Shown here: one piece after another, positions 1 through 9,199 of the stretch
Position numbering within the stretch: position 1 is the stretch's first letter
How the letters are laid out: each line of letters opens with the position of its first letter
Assembly: GCF_000828615.1 (NCBI RefSeq)
Contig: NZ_AP012273.1
Location: forward strand, 1,302,001 to 1,366,000
DNA length: 64,000 nt
Direction: 5' to 3'
Source: Thiolapillus brandeum
Lineage (GTDB): Bacteria; Pseudomonadota; Gammaproteobacteria; Chromatiales; Chromatiaceae
Made by a program: the position numbers and the translations under genes
Notes under the pieces: model-generated
Seen by the model: only the letters and a program-made list of their open reading frames with translations
What the model was told of the DNA's origin: nothing
Databases searched by the model: none

Positions 1-145
1 TCAGGCATTGTGCCCAGCGATAGGTAAAGGCATCTGCCATACAAAATACCGTTTCTGCACGCTGTATTTCGCTGATTGCGCGCTGCGAAATATGTCGCCC
101 AAGTTGTATGCCCGTGCCGACAATGACCAGCGAGCCAGATGTCAT
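1..145 (-). CDS. Split-borosin alpha-N-methyltransferase (SonM-like), N-terminal 48 residues only
   Basis: The frame opens at an ATG at 145-143 and stays open to the window edge, so this is the first 48 codons of a longer gene. Residues 6-16 read LVIVGTGIQLG, a glycine loop of the tetrapyrrole-methylase (SAM-binding) fold, followed by HISQRAISEIQRAETVF and a segment ending YRWAQ. This order matches my memory of the start of SonM, the Shewanella split-borosin methyltransferase (VGTGLQL, then Q-I-S, a helix, and a Q-R-W segment). Such enzymes transfer methyl groups from SAM to backbone amides of a separate precursor peptide. The start overlaps the stop of the diguanylate-cyclase gene by 4 nt (ATGA), implying translational coupling, and a matching 71-aa precursor lies two genes upstream in the same operon. 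The catalytic residues lie outside the window. The main alternative is another tetrapyrrole-methylase-fold enzyme, but the precursor argues against it. Confidence 0.75.
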   Translation of the reverse strand, partial: MTSGSLVIVGTGIQLGRHISQRAISEIQRAETVFCMADAFTYRWAQCL

Positions 146-1869
146 GTGGCCGCCTTTTTTAGATCGGACATATGGTAGATCTGATACTGATTTCTGCCAT
201 TTCGTTTGGCTTTATAAAGTGCGGAATCAGCGTCTCTTATCAAGGTATTCAGGGTTTCGTATTCACCACGCGATATAGCAATGCCAAAACTTAGCGTGAC
301 CTCGATGCTATGGTTTTCGTAGGCAACGGGTTTTAGCTGTTGGCTACAGTTTTCGATCAGATTCCTGGTCTGCTCCACGGACATTCCGGGGAAAAATGCG
401 GTGAATTCTTCCCCGCCAGTACGGCCTACGATGCCCTCGGTGCCAAAACAATTCCTGAGTACCTTGGCAACTGTCTGCAAAACCTTGTCGCCTGCGGCAT
501 GGCCATAGGTGTCATTGACGCGTTTGAACCAGTCTATGTCTGCCACCACCACCGAGAATGGTTTGCCGTCGCGATGATGCTCTTCAAAAATGGTTTCAGC
601 CAAGGTGCATACGTAGGCCTGATTATACAACTGGGTCAAGCCATCGACCTGAGACATGCGCTTGAATCGCCGACGTTCTTTGTGTGCCTGTAGCCACAGC
701 AGGAGAACGATCAGAAAAATACTGACTGAGCTGAGCATGATGATAATAAATTGCTGGTGATTGTTTTTTTTCTGTAGGGTAAGGAGCTGGTTTTCCTTTT
801 TTAGTTGTTCAATGTGTTGCTCCTTGTTTTTTACTTCGAAAGCGACGGTAAGTTGGGCAATGCGAATATTTTTTTTCTGGTCTATGGCTTGTTTTTCCAC
901 TGAACGTTGTTTTTCAAGCCATTTCAGTGCTGTTTTGTAGTTGCCCGCGTCTTTGCTGATTTGTTTTTTCAGTGTGTAGATATCCTGTAAATGCTCTAAA
1001 TAATCCTTAGCCTGAGGGAGTATGACGTCGAGGTAATGGTCTGCCAGTTGGTTGTTTCCCATCTGATAATAAATTTGGGCCATGGTCAGCTGGCTCAGTA
1101 CAATGCCATAGTTGTAATTTGCTGCATGACAGAGATCCAGAGCTTTGTTTGCCTGGGCCAAGGCAGCTTGGTATTTATGTTGTTGTAGCAGTGAGGCAGC
1201 AAGGCCATTGCGTGCCATTCCGATAAACAGTGGGTCTTTTGTGGTAGTGCAGATATCCAGCATGCGACGATAAGCTTTTTCCCCTTTTTTGGTTTCACCA
1301 CGGTGCTGGTATATCGAACCAATAGCATCCAGAGATGTGCAAATATTCATGGTGTTGTGGGTTTTTTTTGCTTCTTTGCTGGCGCTTAGTGCAAATAACA
1401 AAGCTTTATCATAGTCCCCGGCATCTGAATAGATTTCAGGAGCCAAACTGTTGGCAATATATCTCAGTGTGGGATGTTTTATTTTTGGTAATAGTCGCTG
1501 GATTTTGTTCAAAATCTTGAATGCTTCTACATATTTGTTCTGGATTTGGTAGATCAGAATAGCAATGGTATAGGCTCGCATGCGGTAGGCAGGCGGTATC
1601 GAAGGAATATCCAGTTGTTTCAGAATCTGTAACGATGCTGAATTGTCACCTGTAATCGCCAGGTAGCGCATTTTGAGTAAGTCAATCACCCATTGCTGCT
1701 GTGGCGTGGCTTGGTTTTCCAGTGGGGCAAGTTGTTTGACCAGTTTTTCAAGCTCTTGGGTGGGGATGGTGGTAAAAGGGTCAGCTTCCCCGATCAACTC
1801 GTCTAAAGTTTGGGCAATGATCGTCGGGCTAGCCAGCCATATCAGCAGTAAAAGTGCCCCGTACTTCAT
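142..1869 (-). CDS. TPR-repeat membrane-anchored diguanylate cyclase (GGDEF)
   Basis: A 575-aa protein predicted to make cyclic di-GMP from two GTP. Residues 1-19 form a signal peptide. Residues about 60-320 are helical TPR-type repeats in the periplasm. A coiled coil follows (about 333-373), one membrane helix (374-393) and a cytoplasmic GGDEF domain (about 405-566). Visible GGDEF features are DGLT (409-412), DIDWFKRVND (444-453) and the active-site loop GGEEF (485-489). The allosteric product-inhibition site (RxxD, nine residues before the GG) is absent; the equivalent residues are GTEG. There is no EAL domain. The gene sits between the borosin precursor (14 nt upstream) and the methyltransferase (4-nt overlap). 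The 14 nt before its ATG contain no Shine-Dalgarno-like run, unlike the precursor, which suggests lower expression. GC content is visibly lower than in the housekeeping genes nearby. Confidence 0.9.
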   Translation of the reverse strand: MKYGALLLLIWLASPTIIAQTLDELIGEADPFTTIPTQELEKLVKQLAPLENQATPQQQWVIDLLKMRYLAITGDNSASLQILKQLDIPSIPPAYRMRAYTIAILIYQIQNKYVEAFKILNKIQRLLPKIKHPTLRYIANSLAPEIYSDAGDYDKALLFALSASKEAKKTHNTMNICTSLDAIGSIYQHRGETKKGEKAYRRMLDICTTTKDPLFIGMARNGLAASLLQQHKYQAALAQANKALDLCHAANYNYGIVLSQLTMAQIYYQMGNNQLADHYLDVILPQAKDYLEHLQDIYTLKKQISKDAGNYKTALKWLEKQRSVEKQAIDQKKNIRIAQLTVAFEVKNKEQHIEQLKKENQLLTLQKKNNHQQFIIIMLSSVSIFLIVLLLWLQAHKERRRFKRMSQVDGLTQLYNQAYVCTLAETIFEEHHRDGKPFSVVVADIDWFKRVNDTYGHAAGDKVLQTVAKVLRNCFGTEGIVGRTGGEEFTAFFPGMSVEQTRNLIENCSQQLKPVAYENHSIEVTLSFGIAISRGEYETLNTLIRDADSALYKAKRNGRNQYQIYHMSDLKKAAT

Positions 1870-1883
1870 CGGTCGGGCGTAGT

Positions 1884-2099
1884 CTAGTGGATGTAGGGTT
1901 TAATAATCTTATTGGTTTTTGCTAACTCTCCCAATCCTGTAGCAGCTTCCAATTTGGATAAATCAGCGTCTTCCAGCAAGGCCATTTCATCGTCGGTTAA
2001 TCCGGCATGGGTCATCACCTGTTTTGGATCTTTTTCATAGGCGGTAGCCAGATCAGCATCCGAGCCCAATTTGACAAGCAGTTCAGCAAGTTTCGACAT
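1884..2099 (-). CDS. Split-borosin precursor peptide (SonA-like)
   Basis: A 71-aa acidic peptide. The leader is helical and follows the LigA-like borosin-binding-domain pattern: a first helix (MSKLAELLVKLGSD), then Y21-E-K-DP25 with VM (28-29), then GLTDDE (33-38), LL (41-42) and D-x-S-K-L (46-50). From memory this matches SonA of Shewanella nearly position for position. The C-terminus from about residue 61 (KTNKIIKPYIH) is short and rich in beta-branched and aromatic residues, which suits a core peptide for backbone N-methylation. An AAAGAGG ribosome-binding site lies 10 nt upstream of the ATG. It is the first gene of the operon, followed by the diguanylate cyclase and the SonM-like enzyme. 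Similar leaders occur in LigA-type and other RiPP precursors, so the borosin call rests on the co-located methyltransferase. The modified residues cannot be told from the sequence. Confidence 0.78.
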   Translation of the reverse strand: MSKLAELLVKLGSDADLATAYEKDPKQVMTHAGLTDDEMALLEDADLSKLEAATGLGELAKTNKIIKPYIH

Positions 2100-2151: not shown

Positions 2152-2443
2152 GCGTGCGACTACTTCCACGGGGGAAACTATCGTGGTGTTCGCTTAAATT
2201 CGAATAGGTACAAATGAACTGACGTCGATGGTGGATGATTTCGATTTCCGGTTTGATGTAGTGCTGCCCTGATCCCGGGAGGGTTAAGGAATCTGATCAA
2301 GTCGTGAACTGGCAGCCAACGCCCAGGATGTCCCGCTTCTGCATTGCAAGTTTTCGCAATAGCCGGTTATGTGCAATTTGCGCCTTCACTCTGGCCATTC
2401 TGATTCACGAATCTGCTTCGTCCAGAATTAATCCGAGGTTCCT
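2152..2443. other. Intergenic DNA between borosin operon and queF
   Basis: With the leader of the precursor gene, this leaves about 340 nt without a gene. I see no convincing coding frame, tRNA or strong hairpin with a T-tract. It marks the change from AT-richer sequence on the left to GC-rich sequence on the right and may hold degenerate remnants of an older gene. Confidence 0.4.
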
Positions 2444-3033: not shown

Positions 3034-6000
3034 ATGCGTCTGGAAAAAATCAAACTCGCCGGATTCAAGTCCTTCGTTGATCCCACCACCGTTCCCTTTC
3101 CCAGTGCTCTGGTGGGGGTGGTCGGACCCAATGGCTGTGGAAAATCCAATGTCATCGATGCCGTGCGCTGGGTCATGGGGGAAAGCTCCGCCAAGATGCT
3201 GCGTGGTGAATCCATGGCTGATGTCATCTTTAATGGTTCCAGCGCACGCAAACCCGTCGGTGTGGCCAGCGTCGAGCTGGTGTTCGACAACAGTGATGGC
3301 AAGGCTGGTGGGCAATATGCCCAATACAGCACGATTTCTGTGCGCCGCCAGGTGAGCCGGGAAGGCCAGTCCACTTATTTCCTCAACGGCGTGCGATGCC
3401 GCCGCCGGGATATCACTGACTTGTTCCTGGGTACCGGCCTGGGGCCACGCAGCTATGCCATCATCGAGCAGGGCATGATCTCGCGCATCATCGAATCCCG
3501 GCCCGAGGAACTGCGGGTCTATCTGGAAGAAGCGGCAGGTATCTCCAAGTATAAGGAGCGGCGCCGGGAAACGGAAAACCGCATCCGCCATACCCGTGAC
3601 AACCTGGAGCGCCTCACCGACCTTCGGGATGAAATCGAGAAACAGTTGCGCCACCTGGAACGACAGGCGGCCACCGCAGAAAAATACAAGACCTTCAAGG
3701 CTGAAGAACGCCAGGTGAATGCCGAACTGTTACTGCTGCGCCTGCGGGACATGGAGCAGGAGCAGGCGCGCAAGGACCGGCGTATCGCCGAGGAAAAGAA
3801 CCGCTTCGAGAAGGCTCTGGCCAACCAGCGCCGGGTGGAAAGCGAGATCGAAGCCCAGCGCGAGGCGCACAACGAAGCCAACGAAGTATTCAATGAGGTG
3901 CAGGGGCGCTTCTATGCCGCCGGGGCCGATATTGCCCGTCTCGAAGAGGCCATTCAGTATGCCCGGGAATCCCGCCAGCGCAACGAGGCAGAGTTGCTGC
4001 GGGCGCGCCAGGCCCTGGACGAAGCCCGGGCGCATCGTTCCCAGGATGAAGGCAAGCTTCAGGAGATGGCGCAGACCCTGATGCAGGATCAGCCCGAACT
4101 GGAAATGGCCCGGGCCCGGGCCGAAGAACTGGCCGAACGCCAGGCGGCTGCAGAACAGGCCATGCAGGCCTGGCAGGGGGAATGGGACAGTTTCAACGCC
4201 ACAGCCACTGAGCCCGCCCAGACGGCCCAGGTGGAGCGCACCCTGATCAACCAGCTGGAACAGCAGGAGAAGCAGCTCAAGACGCGCCTGGCTCGCCTGG
4301 AGGATGAGCAGCACAAACTGGCGGATCTCAAGCTGCAGGCGGAGATTGGCGAACTGGAAGCCCAGGAAGAGGAGAAGACCGCACTCCTGGAAGAGCTTCG
4401 AGAGGGTGCTGAAGAAGTCAATTTGATCATTGGGGAAACCCGAACCCGCCTGGAAGAGCAGCAGCAGTCTCTGGCCGGCGCCCGCAGTGAACTCGAGACT
4501 GCCCGGGGCCGCCTGGCCTCACTGCGAACCCTGCAACAGGCCGCCATGGGAGATGACGATGAAGCCTTTTCCTCCTGGCTGGAAGCCACCGGGCTGAAGG
4601 ATGCACCGCGCATTCTGGAGCAACTGCAGGTGGAACCCCGCTGGCAGCAGGCGGTGGAAGCCGTGCTGGCAGATCAGTTACAGGGATTGCTGGTGGACAA
4701 CCTGGAGTCACTGTCACCTCGGCTGGCGAGCCTGGAATCCGGACATCTCAACCTGATGGAAACCGGTGCGCTGGGGGTTGCTGACATCCAGGGTACGCTG
4801 GCATCCGTGGTCGAGGGCCCGGACGCACTGCGCCTGCTTCTGGGCCGGGTGCGTCTGGCTGATGATCTGGATAGCGCCCTGCGTCAGCGCGGCGACCTGT
4901 CCCCGGGTGAAATGCTGGTTACCCCCGAAGGCATTTGTCTGGGTAATGGCTGGCTGCGCCTGGAGCGTGGGGATGCCAGCGCCGGCATCCTGGCGCGGGA
5001 ACAGGAAATCCGCGAACTGGCAGCCCGGGTGGAAGAACTGGAACCCCGGGTGGAACAACTCAACCAGCAGCTTGCCGATGATCGCAGACAGCTGGCGCAA
5101 CAGGAACAACGCCGCACGGAACAGCAACACGCCATGGAGCAGGCCGGCAAGGAAGTGGCGGCCATCCAGGCCCAGCTCAGTGGCAAACGCGCCCGCGCCG
5201 ATCATATCCGCCAGCGCATGGAAGGCCTGGCTCAGGACATGCAGGAGATTCGCCAGCAGTTGGAGCAGGACAAGGAGAACATGGAACAGGCCCGCCAGCG
5301 TCTGCACCGGGCGTTGGAACAGATGGAAATCTTTAGCGTGCAGCGTGAACAGCTGGCTGCCCGTCGTGAGCGGTTGCAAAAGGAACTGGCGGATGCCCGG
5401 GAAACCTCCCGCCAGGCCCGCAGTGAAGCTCACCAGATTGCCTTGCGGGTGGAATCCATGCGCAGCTCGGAACAGTCCCTGCGTGATGGCATAGAGCGCG
5501 CCGCCCAGCAGCTCGCCCAGTACGAGGAACGCTGCCGGATTCTGGAAGAACAGATGGAGAAGGGCAGCGAGCCCCTCCAGGCTCAACAACAGGAACTGGA
5601 AGCCCTGCTGCAGAAACGGGTAGGAGTGGAAGCCGAACTCAAAACAGCCCGTCAGCAACTGGAATCCATCGACCATCGCCTGCGGGAGTTGGACAAGGAA
5701 CGCCATGAAGCAGAGCAGCAGGTACAGGAGCAGCGCGACAAGCTGAACCAGGCCAATCTTTCCCGGCAGGAAGTGGTGGTGCGTATCACCACCCTGGAAG
5801 AACAACTGCAACAGACGGGAAAACCCCGCGCGGAGTTGGAACAAGGCTTGCCCGAGGACGCGGATATCCATACCTGGAAAGAGCGTTCCGGACTTCTGGC
5901 CCGGCGCATCCAGCGCCTGGGGGCCATCAATCTGGCGGCTATCGACGAGTTCCGGGAACAGAAAGAGCGTATGGAATACATCGATGCCCAGCACGCGGAT

Positions 6001-6531
6001 GTCACCAAGTCCCTGGAAACCCTGGAAGAGGCGATCCGCAAGATCGACCGGGAGACCCGCACCCGTTTCAAGGAGACCTTCGACAAGGTCAATGGCGGAC
6101 TCAAGGCCATGTTTCCCAAGCTGTTCGGTGGGGGCCATGCCTACCTGGAAATGGTGGGCGAGGATCCCCTGGATGCCGGAGTGGCCATCATGGCGCGCCC
6201 CCCGGGCAAGCGCAACTCAAGTATCCATCTCCTTTCAGGTGGCGAGAAGGCCCTGTCTGCCGTGGCCCTGGTGTTCTCCATCTTCCAGCTCAACCCGGCG
6301 CCCTTCTGCATGCTGGACGAAGTGGACGCGCCCCTGGACGATGCCAACGTGGGGCGTTTCTGCGAGTTGGTCAAGGAAATGTCCGATACGGTGCAGTTCA
6401 TCTTCATCACCCACAACAAGGTGACCATGGCGATTTCCAACCAGCTGCTGGGTGTGACCATGAACGAACCGGGAGTCTCCCGCCTGGTGTCCGTGGACGT
6501 GGAGGAAGCGGCGCAGATGGCGGCCATGTAG
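3034..6531 (+). CDS. smc: Chromosome segregation/condensation ATPase SMC
   Basis: A 1165-aa SMC protein that, with ScpA/ScpB kleisin partners (not in this window), organises the nucleoid by ATP-driven DNA loop handling. The N-terminal head has Walker A GPNGCGKS at residues 31-38. Two very long Gln/Glu/Arg-rich coiled coils flank a hinge at about 500-660. The C-terminal head carries the ABC signature LLSGGEKALS, then Walker B FCMLDEVDAPLDD and a switch His in FIFITHNK. Length is normal for the family. I chose the ATG at 3034 (MRLEKIKLAGFKSF is the canonical start); an in-frame TTG nine bases upstream is possible. No clear Shine-Dalgarno precedes either start. The upstream 200 nt are AT-rich and shared with divergent queF. 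Confidence 0.96.
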   Translation: MRLEKIKLAGFKSFVDPTTVPFPSALVGVVGPNGCGKSNVIDAVRWVMGESSAKMLRGESMADVIFNGSSARKPVGVASVELVFDNSDGKAGGQYAQYSTISVRRQVSREGQSTYFLNGVRCRRRDITDLFLGTGLGPRSYAIIEQGMISRIIESRPEELRVYLEEAAGISKYKERRRETENRIRHTRDNLERLTDLRDEIEKQLRHLERQAATAEKYKTFKAEERQVNAELLLLRLRDMEQEQARKDRRIAEEKNRFEKALANQRRVESEIEAQREAHNEANEVFNEVQGRFYAAGADIARLEEAIQYARESRQRNEAELLRARQALDEARAHRSQDEGKLQEMAQTLMQDQPELEMARARAEELAERQAAAEQAMQAWQGEWDSFNATATEPAQTAQVERTLINQLEQQEKQLKTRLARLEDEQHKLADLKLQAEIGELEAQEEEKTALLEELREGAEEVNLIIGETRTRLEEQQQSLAGARSELETARGRLASLRTLQQAAMGDDDEAFSSWLEATGLKDAPRILEQLQVEPRWQQAVEAVLADQLQGLLVDNLESLSPRLASLESGHLNLMETGALGVADIQGTLASVVEGPDALRLLLGRVRLADDLDSALRQRGDLSPGEMLVTPEGICLGNGWLRLERGDASAGILAREQEIRELAARVEELEPRVEQLNQQLADDRRQLAQQEQRRTEQQHAMEQAGKEVAAIQAQLSGKRARADHIRQRMEGLAQDMQEIRQQLEQDKENMEQARQRLHRALEQMEIFSVQREQLAARRERLQKELADARETSRQARSEAHQIALRVESMRSSEQSLRDGIERAAQQLAQYEERCRILEEQMEKGSEPLQAQQQELEALLQKRVGVEAELKTARQQLESIDHRLRELDKERHEAEQQVQEQRDKLNQANLSRQEVVVRITTLEEQLQQTGKPRAELEQGLPEDADIHTWKERSGLLARRIQRLGAINLAAIDEFREQKERMEYIDAQHADVTKSLETLEEAIRKIDRETRTRFKETFDKVNGGLKAMFPKLFGGGHAYLEMVGEDPLDAGVAIMARPPGKRNSSIHLLSGGEKALSAVALVFSIFQLNPAPFCMLDEVDAPLDDANVGRFCELVKEMSDTVQFIFITHNKVTMAISNQLLGVTMNEPGVSRLVSVDVEEAAQMAAM

Positions 6532-6580
6532 GCTTGTCCATTGGCATCCTGAGTCACTGCAACAAAGGGGGAGACTGATC

Positions 6581-9199
6581 ATGGGGGAGAAACGCCGCAA
6601 TCACATCCATGGTCACGTCCGGTGTCCAGTGGTGTTGGGTTTCCTGTTGCTGCTTTGTTGGTTCAATCCGGCTTCTGCCGACACGCCCAACCTCACCTGG
6701 GAAGAGGCCATGGCCCGCAGCCGACTGGTTTCATCCGTGGACTACCAGCTGTATTTCGAGTTTGGCGCCGGCAGTGGGGAATACCTTGGCCGGGTGGAAG
6801 TGGCTTTCGACCTGGCGTCCCGGCCGGAATCCCTGTTTCTCGACTTTCAGGGAGATCACCTGAAAAAGTTGCGGGTCAATGACAGGGAAATACCGGATGC
6901 GGCCATCCGCAACTACCGGGTATATCTGGCGCCTGAATTGCTGAGGGTCGGCCGTAACCGGGTGACCCTGGAATATGAGAATGCCTTCGATACCAATGGC
7001 TCAGGTCTGAGCCGTTTCGTGGATCCGGCGGACGGCAATGCCTATTTCTTTTCCCACTTCGAGCCTTTCCATGCGAATCGCCTGTTTCCCTGTTTCGACC
7101 AGCCGGATCTCAAGGCCAGCTACGCGCTGACGGTAGTGGCGCCCAAAGGCTGGCGGATACTGAGCAATACTCTGGCCGACACCACTGTGAGTGGCAGCCG
7201 CGCCCGTCATGTGTTCAACAGGAGCAAGCGTTTTTCCACCTACCTGTTCGCCCTGGCGGGCGGTCCATTTGCGGTTTTCGAAGATCAACGGGCGAGGGTG
7301 CCCAGCCGTGTATTCACGACCCGGAGCATGGCGGCTTATGCCGATGTGGAACAGATCTTCGAAGTGACCCGCCAGGGGATGGATTTCTACGAGGATTATT
7401 TTGGCATTCCGTACCCTTTTGGCAAGTATGACCAGATTTTCGTGCCGCATTTCAACGAAGGGGCCATGGAGAATGTGGCTGCGGTCATCATCAATGAAGA
7501 CAGTTATCTTTACCGGGAAAAACCGCGGCCTTCCCAACTGAAGCGGCGGGCCAATACCTTGTTGCATGAAATGGCGCACATGTGGTTCGGGGATATTGTC
7601 ACCATGCGCTGGTGGAACGACCTGTGGCTGAATGAGAGTTTTGCCACCTACATGTCCTACCTCGCTCAGGTTCGTGCCACCGGGGACAAGGATGCCTGGC
7701 AGGGTTTTTCCAGCCGTATGAAAGCCTGGGCCTATTGGCAGGATCAGTTGCCCACCACCCATCCCATAGAAACCCGGGTGCCGGATACCTCGTCCACTTT
7801 CGATAATTTTGATGGCATTACTTACGGGAAAGGTGCTGCGGTACTCAAGCAACTGGCATTTTTTGTCGGCCCGGAAAATTTCAGGAAGGGCGTTGCGGCC
7901 TACCTCAAGGGTCATGCCTGGAAAAATGCCGCACGCAGGGATTTTACCCATGCCCTGGAAAAATCTTCCGGCAGGAATCTGGAGGACTGGACCCGCCTGT
8001 GGTTGCAGACCTCGGGCATCAATACCCTGGAGGTTGATTACCGCCTGGATTCCAAAGGCAGGATTTCGCACTTCGAGGTGTTGCAGGGCAAGGGAAATGG
8101 GGATGCCGTGCTGCGCCCCCATCGTCTGCAGATTGCTTTCTATACGGCCGGAATCAAGGTCAGGACCGTCAACGTGGAGATTCGCGGGGCGCGTACCCGG
8201 GTCAAAGCCCTGGAAGGTCTGGCTGCGCCGGACTTCATCTTTCCCAACCAGGGGGATCATGCCTATGCCAAGTGCTATCTGGATCAGCGCAGCCTGGACT
8301 GGGCCAGGGCCAGGGCCCATCTGGAACGTCTGCCGGGGGATATCCGTGTGGCGATCTGGAATACCCTCTGGTTCATGGTCCGGGATGGGCGCCTGCCACC
8401 TGCCGCCTACATGGAGATTTTTCTGGACAAGGTGGCCCGGGAAACGGATGCAAGCCTGGTCGAAGCCTTCCGCTGGAAACTTGACACCTTGCTGAATCAG
8501 TATATGAGCCAGGAGGAATGGCGCACCAGTGTCCGGCATTTATACGACCTGGCCTGGCAGCAGCTGAAATCACTGCCACCGGGATCCGATCTTCAGGCGG
8601 CCTGGCTGGAGCACTTCCTGCGTGGCGCGGAATCCGCGGAAGCTGCCCGGCGCCTGCAAGGCATGCTGGAAGGCAGGGTGGTGGTGCCAGGACTGGAACT
8701 TGGCCAGGACCGGCGCTGGCGGATTCTGATTCGTCTGGCGGCGTTGGGAGTCGAAGATATCGAAGCACTGCTGTCCCGGGAATCCTTGCGCGATCCCGGG
8801 GAACGGGGCCGCAAACAGCTGTTCGTGGCCCGGGCAGCCCTGCCTGATCCGGCTTCCAAGGCCAGGATCTGGAAGCGGCTGCTGGAGGACAGGAAACTAC
8901 CTCTGACCTATGTGCGTGCTGCCCTGGAGGTATTTTATCAGCGTTCCCACCCGGAACTGACCCATCCCTGGGCGGAGCGATACTTTCAGGTGCTGCCCGG
9001 CGTGGTGAAGAATCGCAGTCCCAGGTTCGCCCGGAGTTTCATTCGGTTTGCTTTTCCCCGTATGAACGTCGAGCCATCCGTTCTGGACGAGACTGACAGG
9101 CTGTTGCAGGAAGACATCGGCAAGACCGGTTTTCTGCACAGGCTGCTGCTCGAGGCGCGGGACTCCCTGGCCAGGGCCCTGCGAATCCGGCATTCCTGA
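6581..9199 (+). CDS. Exported M1-family zinc aminopeptidase (PepN-like)
   Basis: An 872-aa metallopeptidase that trims N-terminal residues from peptides. The exopeptidase motif GAMEN is at 294-298. The zinc site is HEMAH (329-333), with the third ligand Glu352 in NESF, giving the HEXXH-X18-E spacing of M1 enzymes. Helical ERAP1-like C-terminal sequence fills the rest. The N-terminus (basic residues, then a leucine-rich core ending near NPASADTP) is a convincing signal peptide, so it should act in the periplasm, unlike cytosolic E. coli PepN. A strong ribosome-binding site (AAAGGGGGA) lies upstream of the ATG. It follows smc after 49 nt with no terminator between them, but the pair is not functionally linked. 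Confidence 0.92.
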   Translation: MGEKRRNHIHGHVRCPVVLGFLLLLCWFNPASADTPNLTWEEAMARSRLVSSVDYQLYFEFGAGSGEYLGRVEVAFDLASRPESLFLDFQGDHLKKLRVNDREIPDAAIRNYRVYLAPELLRVGRNRVTLEYENAFDTNGSGLSRFVDPADGNAYFFSHFEPFHANRLFPCFDQPDLKASYALTVVAPKGWRILSNTLADTTVSGSRARHVFNRSKRFSTYLFALAGGPFAVFEDQRARVPSRVFTTRSMAAYADVEQIFEVTRQGMDFYEDYFGIPYPFGKYDQIFVPHFNEGAMENVAAVIINEDSYLYREKPRPSQLKRRANTLLHEMAHMWFGDIVTMRWWNDLWLNESFATYMSYLAQVRATGDKDAWQGFSSRMKAWAYWQDQLPTTHPIETRVPDTSSTFDNFDGITYGKGAAVLKQLAFFVGPENFRKGVAAYLKGHAWKNAARRDFTHALEKSSGRNLEDWTRLWLQTSGINTLEVDYRLDSKGRISHFEVLQGKGNGDAVLRPHRLQIAFYTAGIKVRTVNVEIRGARTRVKALEGLAAPDFIFPNQGDHAYAKCYLDQRSLDWARARAHLERLPGDIRVAIWNTLWFMVRDGRLPPAAYMEIFLDKVARETDASLVEAFRWKLDTLLNQYMSQEEWRTSVRHLYDLAWQQLKSLPPGSDLQAAWLEHFLRGAESAEAARRLQGMLEGRVVVPGLELGQDRRWRILIRLAALGVEDIEALLSRESLRDPGERGRKQLFVARAALPDPASKARIWKRLLEDRKLPLTYVRAALEVFYQRSHPELTHPWAERYFQVLPGVVKNRSPRFARSFIRFAFPRMNVEPSVLDETDRLLQEDIGKTGFLHRLLLEARDSLARALRIRHS

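Follow-up and report, generated by a model that had tools for sequence, protein, structure and literature searches.

The window, by which we mean the whole 64,000-nucleotide stretch of Thiolapillus brandeum DNA analysed here (G000:C1:1302001-1366000 of the 3.15-Mb genome G000), begins with three co-linear genes on the minus strand that encode, in operon order, a small peptide precursor, a sensor combining tetratricopeptide repeats (TPR) with a GGDEF domain, and a SonM-type methyltransferase. By its homologies, this gene set is almost certainly a split borosin, a known class in which a methyltransferase and a separately encoded precursor with a borosin-binding domain (BBD) act together. The methyltransferase gene crosses the left edge of the window, and its flank was taken from the same genome as locus L004; throughout, Lnnn labels denote fetched loci and Gnnn labels denote genomes. 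The features, in window coordinates, are as follows.

1884..2099, minus strand: borosin precursor 1 of 71 aa, made up of a BBD leader and a C-terminal core (phmmer match to SonA, profile match, alignment with 13 relatives)
1887..1919, minus strand: predicted core, residues 61-71, KTNKIIKPYIH (alignments of 39 loci and of 14 precursors)
142..1869, minus strand: sensor with TPR, transmembrane helix and GGDEF domain, 575 aa (Pfam GGDEF and several TPR families; full-length structure model)
835..1797, minus strand: TPR superhelix, about residues 25-345, predicted periplasmic (TPR structure model, Foldseek, alignment A3)
691..747, minus strand: predicted membrane helix, residues 375-393 (Kyte-Doolittle scan)
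172..663, minus strand: GGDEF domain, residues 403-566, with an active-type GGEEF motif and without the I-site RxxD, which reads GTEG (Pfam, motif counts)
1..145, minus strand: SonM-type alpha-N-methyltransferase, first 48 of 262 codons in the window, running on leftwards to G000:C1:1301357
2213..2294, no strand assigned: right copy of an 82-nt direct repeat (repeat search; the left copy, L004:8894-8975, lies outside the window)

The precursor gene ends 14 nt before the sensor open reading frame (ORF), and the sensor gene overlaps the methyltransferase gene by 4 nt. An earlier note on this DNA had described a minus-strand operon with a 4-nt overlap, in which the 71-aa ORF at 1884-2099 was taken as the precursor and the partial ORF at 1-145 as the methyltransferase. 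Both ORFs are present and the overlap is real, but its partners are the methyltransferase and the 575-aa gene at 142-1869 (minus strand), the largest of the operon, which that account omitted. Judged by gene order, precursor and enzyme are encoded together with the sensor gene between them. Scans for promoters and terminators yielded nothing in excess of shuffled sequence, and no tRNA was found within L004.

Completed from the left flank, the methyltransferase comprises 262 aa (G000:C1:1301357-1302145) and is a discrete enzyme homologous to SonM (PDB 7ltc), matching it over residues 4-260 with E=9.4e-68 and 231.8 bits, while fungal borosin enzymes match with E values of 1e-44 to about 1e-40. 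It opens with MTSGSLVIVGTGIQLG, for which the SonM counterpart is GSLVCVGTGLQLA. In the passages of PMC8429565 covered here, the SonM residues shown to matter are Y58, R67, Y71, Y93, F99, E146, W166 and Q167; by a hand count on the pairwise alignment these correspond to Y59, R65, Y69, Y91, F97, E144, W164 and Q165, all eight of which are unchanged across seven homologues, so that the active-site equivalents of Y58, R67, Y71, Y93 and W166 are retained. The closest named relative is the enzyme of Thiolapillus brandeum HyVt-458 (70% identity), and this genome has three Pfam TP_methylase matches and a single match to the SonM-type enzyme.

The earlier note had named a better match to a cobalamin methylase as the outcome that would speak against its class assignment. 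This identity was rejected, as three cobalamin models gave 12-17 bits (at most 16.6) against cut-offs of 163-391, and a YabN-type methylase was likewise discarded (26 bits against an NCBIfam cut-off of 525). An enzyme of some other tetrapyrrole-type pathway beside an unrelated small protein would agree with the Pfam label, which is TP_methylase only, with the sub-cut-off YabN match, and with sub-cut-off NCBIfam matches of the precursor to the IniB N-terminal model (27.4 of 40 bits) and to models of NHLP-type ribosomally synthesized and post-translationally modified peptides; set against the SonM match, the SonA match of the neighbouring gene, the kept active site and the low cobalamin scores, we regard it as extremely improbable. 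On the features that can be judged from sequence, the assignment to the split borosins stood, with a separate SonM-type enzyme, a separate BBD precursor, conserved catalytic residues and co-linear genes.

The precursor, encoded apart from the enzyme, is matched by SonA (7ltc_B) with E=5e-6 over the BBD, residues 1-55 (phmmer). Behind this leader stands the short beta-branched tail that had been noticed before; it ends KTNKIIKPYIH, close to the clade pattern T-N-x-x-I/V-K/R-A-Y-D/E, and the commonest form among relatives is TNHxIKAYDE. By analogy with SonM and SonA, the backbone of this core would be N-methylated. A precursor profile of 14 rows, in which both precursors of this genome are included, found exactly two matches here at E<=0.01, one at 1.2e-30 and precursor 1 at 6e-30.

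The sensor matches the Pfam GGDEF domain (3.4e-42) and several TPR families, and its full-length model reached a pLDDT of 94.1 and a pTM of 0.67. Hydropathy runs from a weaker N-terminal stretch (residues 4-22) through the TPR region to a strong helix (375-393) and the GGDEF domain, an order from which the TPR domain is predicted to be periplasmic and the cyclase cytoplasmic; the helix shortly before the GGDEF domain was predicted in all 75 homologous sensors. Two cysteines of the TPR region, Cys177 and Cys207, are invariant across 40 aligned sequences, as are the catalytic positions D444, D446, N452, D453 and E488, metal-binding aspartates among them, and the diguanylate-cyclase signature is present as GGEEF. 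Product inhibition through an RxxD I-site is common in diguanylate cyclases and is not essential to them. With GTEG in its place, the sensor resembles those fused to the methyltransferase, of which none of 25 keeps the motif, and most upstream-type sensors (2 of 16 keep it), whereas it is kept in 30 of the 34 downstream-type sensors.

Because the 50 matches listed for the full-length fold search were GGDEF proteins, the TPR region was modelled (pLDDT 95.4) and searched alone. Among the 50 PDB chains listed by Foldseek, 15 are pheromone receptors of the Rap/NprR type, several of them peptide-bound, with TMq up to 0.70. Receptors of this RRNPP family are cytoplasmic and are encoded beside a small peptide gene. 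The sensor shares with Rap and NprR a TPR superhelix of similar size and shape and the adjoining small peptide gene; unlike them, it is predicted by its hydropathy (N-terminal stretch, TPR, membrane helix) to face the periplasm and has a GGDEF or, in relatives, a histidine-kinase output, and its ligand would be a backbone-methylated peptide. Among Pfam models no RRNPP-specific one matches it; the matches are to generic TPR families, with TPR_MalT below its cut-off.

We then asked how constantly such a sensor accompanies the enzyme. A scan of named genomes gave at least 580 relatives, and the 80 best-scoring loci, which are therefore the closest relatives of the query enzyme, were analysed. A GGDEF sensor is tied to the methyltransferase in 75 of these 80, being fused to it in 25 and encoded beside it in 50 (same strand, no more than 1,100 bp away); a TPR query matches 68 of the 75 sensors at 1e-4, and the remaining seven are similar in length. 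The five loci that remain lie at contig edges: L052 and L077 retain part of a sensor, the end of a GGDEF domain is visible at the edge of the L033 contig (as L011), and L067 and L076 are uninformative. In an even sample of the phylum (398 genomes, 15 of them with a methyltransferase match at 1e-25, including this one), an adjoining sensor was present in 15 of 16 loci when the present locus was excluded; this count joins 13 of 14 in one locus set with L024 and L025, and in four loci only the GGDEF part exceeded the threshold. In a sample of the class (369 genomes, ten with a match at 1e-10, this genome among them), a sensor was found in only three of the nine others (G479, G557 and G539). The samples overlap, since L032-L035 are the loci of G185, G167, G562 and G077, and L086 and L171, among others, appear to be identical contigs. 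A TPR-GGDEF sensor is a near-constant partner in this split-borosin clade.

In three of the 15 phylum-sample loci the sensor is a TPR-histidine-kinase protein. The TPR-GGDEF protein is replaced by a TPR hybrid histidine kinase with receiver domains in L025, L172 and L180, and such a kinase is added to it in L023.

The closest and most regular association of the sensor is with the precursor. Of the 80 named loci, 70 contain precursor ORFs detected by a BBD model, 81 in all, and 73 of these ORFs end within 300 bp of a same-strand sensor start, at a median gap of 13 bp (overlap of called ORFs being allowed). At least one such pair occurs in 69 of the 70 loci, the exception, L045, apparently stemming from an ORF called too long; in a second locus set a precursor was detected in 16 of 17 loci and paired in all 16. 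The ten named loci without a modelled precursor comprise four at contig edges (L033, L052, L067 and L076), two whose precursor falls inside an over-long ORF (L050 and L107), and L072, L083, L091 and L098. Inspection by eye, kept outside these counts, showed a likely small precursor ORF in the gaps of L179, L072, L083 and L091 and none in L098. The methyltransferase, by comparison, may lie upstream, downstream, fused or divergent; in L176 it is on the opposite strand and precursor and sensor are still together. Of the sensor's neighbours, the precursor is thus the most constant. Two loci, L080 and L092, have one methyltransferase followed by two precursor-sensor pairs. In L102 a single methyltransferase precedes five precursor ORFs and two TPR-GGDEF genes, and 13 loci, mostly from Rheinheimera, share a recurrent ORF between methyltransferase and precursor (202 aa in L092, 8743-9351).

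This pairing also led to a prediction within the T. brandeum genome. The sensor protein has 25 matches there, itself included, and one other is full-length (51% identity; G000:C1:2036513-2038210). As predicted from the pairing, a 71-aa precursor was then found directly upstream of it, ending KTNIIVKAYDQ, so that a second pair occupies G000:C1:2036233-2038210 (L137:6234-8229); no methyltransferase stands beside it. By eye, its neighbours are ATP-grasp-like, MFS, START and BatD-like genes, and the same set flanks the complete operon of congeners; the methyltransferase therefore appears to have been lost at this site or gained at the others. Of 15 genomes of the genus, six have the enzyme and five of these the precursors and full-length sensors; in the sixth, G167, a contig break falls at the sensor, and the other nine lack all three. 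Precursor and sensor counts are equal in every genome of the genus (two and two here), although most of these precursors belong to the search profile and their own detection follows by construction; that of G559 lies outside the profile. Another precursor-sensor pair without a methyltransferase beside it was found in G758, where the one detected enzyme is on the same contig at a distance of about 87 kb.

The association is moreover confined to one kind of TPR-GGDEF protein. A sensor profile searched against 14 genomes had matches in 11, the three without being those with the histidine-kinase version. Sixteen of the matches are near-full-length (about 1e-105 or better) and six are weaker. A precursor was detected directly upstream of 12 of the 16, and the remaining four lie within or close to a borosin locus: the G479 sensor and the second G828 sensor are inside an operon, that of G821 stands beside a small ORF that is visible and escaped detection, and the fourth, from G906, is taken up below. 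None of the six weaker paralogues has a detected precursor.

A sensor of this kind also accompanies SonM and SonA, the founding split borosin, a type IV system of Shewanella oneidensis described in PMC8429565, which, in the part of that paper covered here, consists of a homologous separate methyltransferase and 71-aa BBD precursor. In G998, presumably a genome of S. oneidensis or of a very close relative, SonA (4948-5163) lies downstream of a 100% identical SonM (L190:4112-4903), and a 596-aa protein (5164-6954) with a GGDEF domain and a weak TPR match is encoded immediately after SonA, with zero gap. The order there is methyltransferase, precursor, sensor, as against precursor, sensor, methyltransferase here; the SonA tail is YLVISHGNGD and ours TNKIIKPYIH, and the cyclase I-site is kept there (RNGD) and lost here (GTEG). 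A search with SonM in the genus of G906 found matches at 1e-20 in 101 of 117 genomes, and the 20 loci chosen from these, representing 19 genomes, all have a precursor gene immediately ahead of a TPR sensor. Apparent decay was seen in three loci: the L191 sensor ORF has 432 aa with TPR and no GGDEF match, that of L094 stops inside the GGDEF domain, and L196 has a truncated second methyltransferase ORF.

The TPR-GGDEF-methyltransferase fusions, mostly from Lysobacterales/Xanthomonadales, contain the same three modules in the same order as the operon described here, and their core, commonly ATNHxIKAYDE, resembles the present one; in that type one polypeptide follows the precursor (23 of the 80 named loci), where here there are three separate genes. 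In the fungal fused borosins, OphMA carries its own core on a homologous methyltransferase, and here the precursor is a separate gene.

We propose, with about an even chance of being right, that this split-borosin operon is coupled to its own transmembrane sensor and that the mature N-methylated peptide is the signal. The methyltransferase would dock the BBD of the precursor and N-methylate backbone amides around the core Ile-Ile, as in SonM/SonA; general machinery would cut off the tail and take it out of the cytoplasm; and the N-methylated peptide would bind, in the periplasm, the TPR domain of the sensor from the neighbouring gene. Binding would change GGDEF activity and hence the level of cyclic di-GMP (c-di-GMP), with a phosphorelay as the output in some relatives. 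Such a system would resemble the peptide-pheromone/TPR-receptor pairs of Gram-positive bacteria, with the receptor facing the periplasm. Because the second pair in this genome lacks a methyltransferase, one enzyme may serve several precursor-sensor pairs. The wider proposal, that the whole clade including SonM/SonA represents Gram-negative peptide signalling in which pairs spread and duplicate and share the methyltransferase in trans, is more tentative, and we hold it somewhat less probable than its negation. Concerning the cleavage step, shewasin A reportedly acts on a borosin precursor; a search with the Pfam Asp model for pepsin-type proteases gave no match in this genome and none in 14 controls.

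Comparisons of sequence divergence bear on recognition of the core. All 15 pairings of six sensors of the genus show greater divergence in the TPR domain than in the GGDEF domain (52% against 87% identity between G077 and G562), as would be expected of a part that reads a ligand. In 39 of 64 precursor-sensor pairs, all of the precursor-upstream type and with L095 and L104 left out, core distance tracks TPR distance when GGDEF distance is removed (partial r=0.31, p=0.005), and it follows GGDEF distance beyond TPR not at all (-0.005). These correlations are suggestive of core-TPR co-evolution and constitute weak evidence for core recognition that is not specific to the core.

Several observations weigh against the signalling proposal. 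A TPR region outpacing its GGDEF domain is also usual for a repeat domain beside a catalytic one; the core-TPR correlation falls to r=0.16 (p=0.058) when methyltransferase distance is removed as well, and the BBD tracks the TPR at least as well as the core does (r=0.36, p=0.001). The periplasmic placement of the TPR comes from a simple hydropathy scan in which the N-terminal stretch passes the threshold in 63 of 75 sensors. LGN/Pins chains account for about 26 of the 50 Foldseek chains listed, including the top two ranks, at the same TM-scores, and since TPR superhelices are generic, the likeness to Rap/NprR is support and not proof. As to linkage, at the thresholds used L184 of the phylum sample has no adjoining sensor, nor do six distant borosin-type methyltransferases of the class sample (28-37% identity) or the fused methyltransferase L013 (39% identity), which makes the sensor link a property of one clade. 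The full-length G906 sensor, about 2.4 kb from a methyltransferase, has no detected precursor, and inspection by eye of the 22 largest clusters of neighbouring genes revealed neither an exporter nor a protease. Finally, the fusion of methyltransferase and sensor in 25 loci could also mean that the sensor regulates the enzyme.

This last point leads to the reading in which the sensor is a controller, its TPR domain sensing some other cue, local c-di-GMP or membrane tethering switching borosin synthesis, and the peptide acting elsewhere. Where methyltransferase and TPR-GGDEF form one polypeptide, as in 25 of the 80 loci, the enzyme would be held at the membrane next to the cyclase, and all 25 fused sensors have an intact GGDEF motif but no I-site. 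What such control explains poorly is that precursor-sensor pairs occur without a neighbouring methyltransferase, are duplicated behind a single one (L080 and L092), and stay together beside a divergent one (L176), the precursor being the most constant neighbour of the sensor; we consider it rather unlikely, at roughly one chance in four. The peptide might also be a secreted natural product of an ordinary kind, for instance an antimicrobial or a metal binder, and the TPR-GGDEF gene merely co-transcribed for general regulation. GGDEF proteins are indeed plentiful in this genome, as the 25 matches to the sensor illustrate, and omphalotin A, a fungal borosin, is nematocidal according to the passages of PMC11285071 covered. 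The partner, however, is one subfamily, all 16 near-full-length matches lying in or near borosin loci or having their own precursor and all six weaker ones lacking a detected one, and the tail is short with a pattern conserved clade-wide, so that this explanation appears less probable still. Peptide signalling through the adjoining sensor thus remains our preferred interpretation.

Composition and flanking sequence bear on the origin of this copy. The three operon genes have a G+C content of 44-48.5% against 56.7% for the window; the precursor and sensor of the second pair have 45% and 52%, and the complete operons of G077 and G185 have 45-58%. The two copies of the 82-nt direct repeat, 80% identical, flank the operon, and the left one is the 3' end of an alkyl-sulfatase gene (Pfam). 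A gain of the operon by transfer, or by recombination at the repeat site, is plausible on these grounds.

The link between GGDEF domains and borosins is not new in itself, since the legend of Figure 1 in PMC11395268 includes a GGDEF domain among borosin architectures, the type of architecture not being visible in that part of the source. At their first description, type IV borosins included no pathway with a final product, as stated in the passages of PMC8429565 covered, and the main text of that paper nowhere mentions GGDEF or diguanylate. No function for type IV borosins was found in the literature passages covered. Full-text searches of the PMC open subset found nothing joining borosins with diguanylate cyclases or c-di-GMP, no TPR-GGDEF phrases, and no text joining borosins with Shewanella regulation or shewasin with borosins. 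The pairing of precursor and TPR sensor, the pairs without a methyltransferase and the signal reading were likewise not found in that subset, and Imani 2022 and Lee 2024 may cover part of them.

The near-constant TPR sensor, its pairing with the precursor and not with the enzyme, and the occurrence of methyltransferase-less pairs lead to a hypothesis with a defined ligand, receptor and output, which is testable in Shewanella, given that a SonM homologue occurs in 101 of the 117 sampled genomes of the genus of G906. If it is true, backbone N-methylation would be a route to a stable peptide signal in Gram-negative bacteria, and a poorly understood class of natural products would gain a role as signals.

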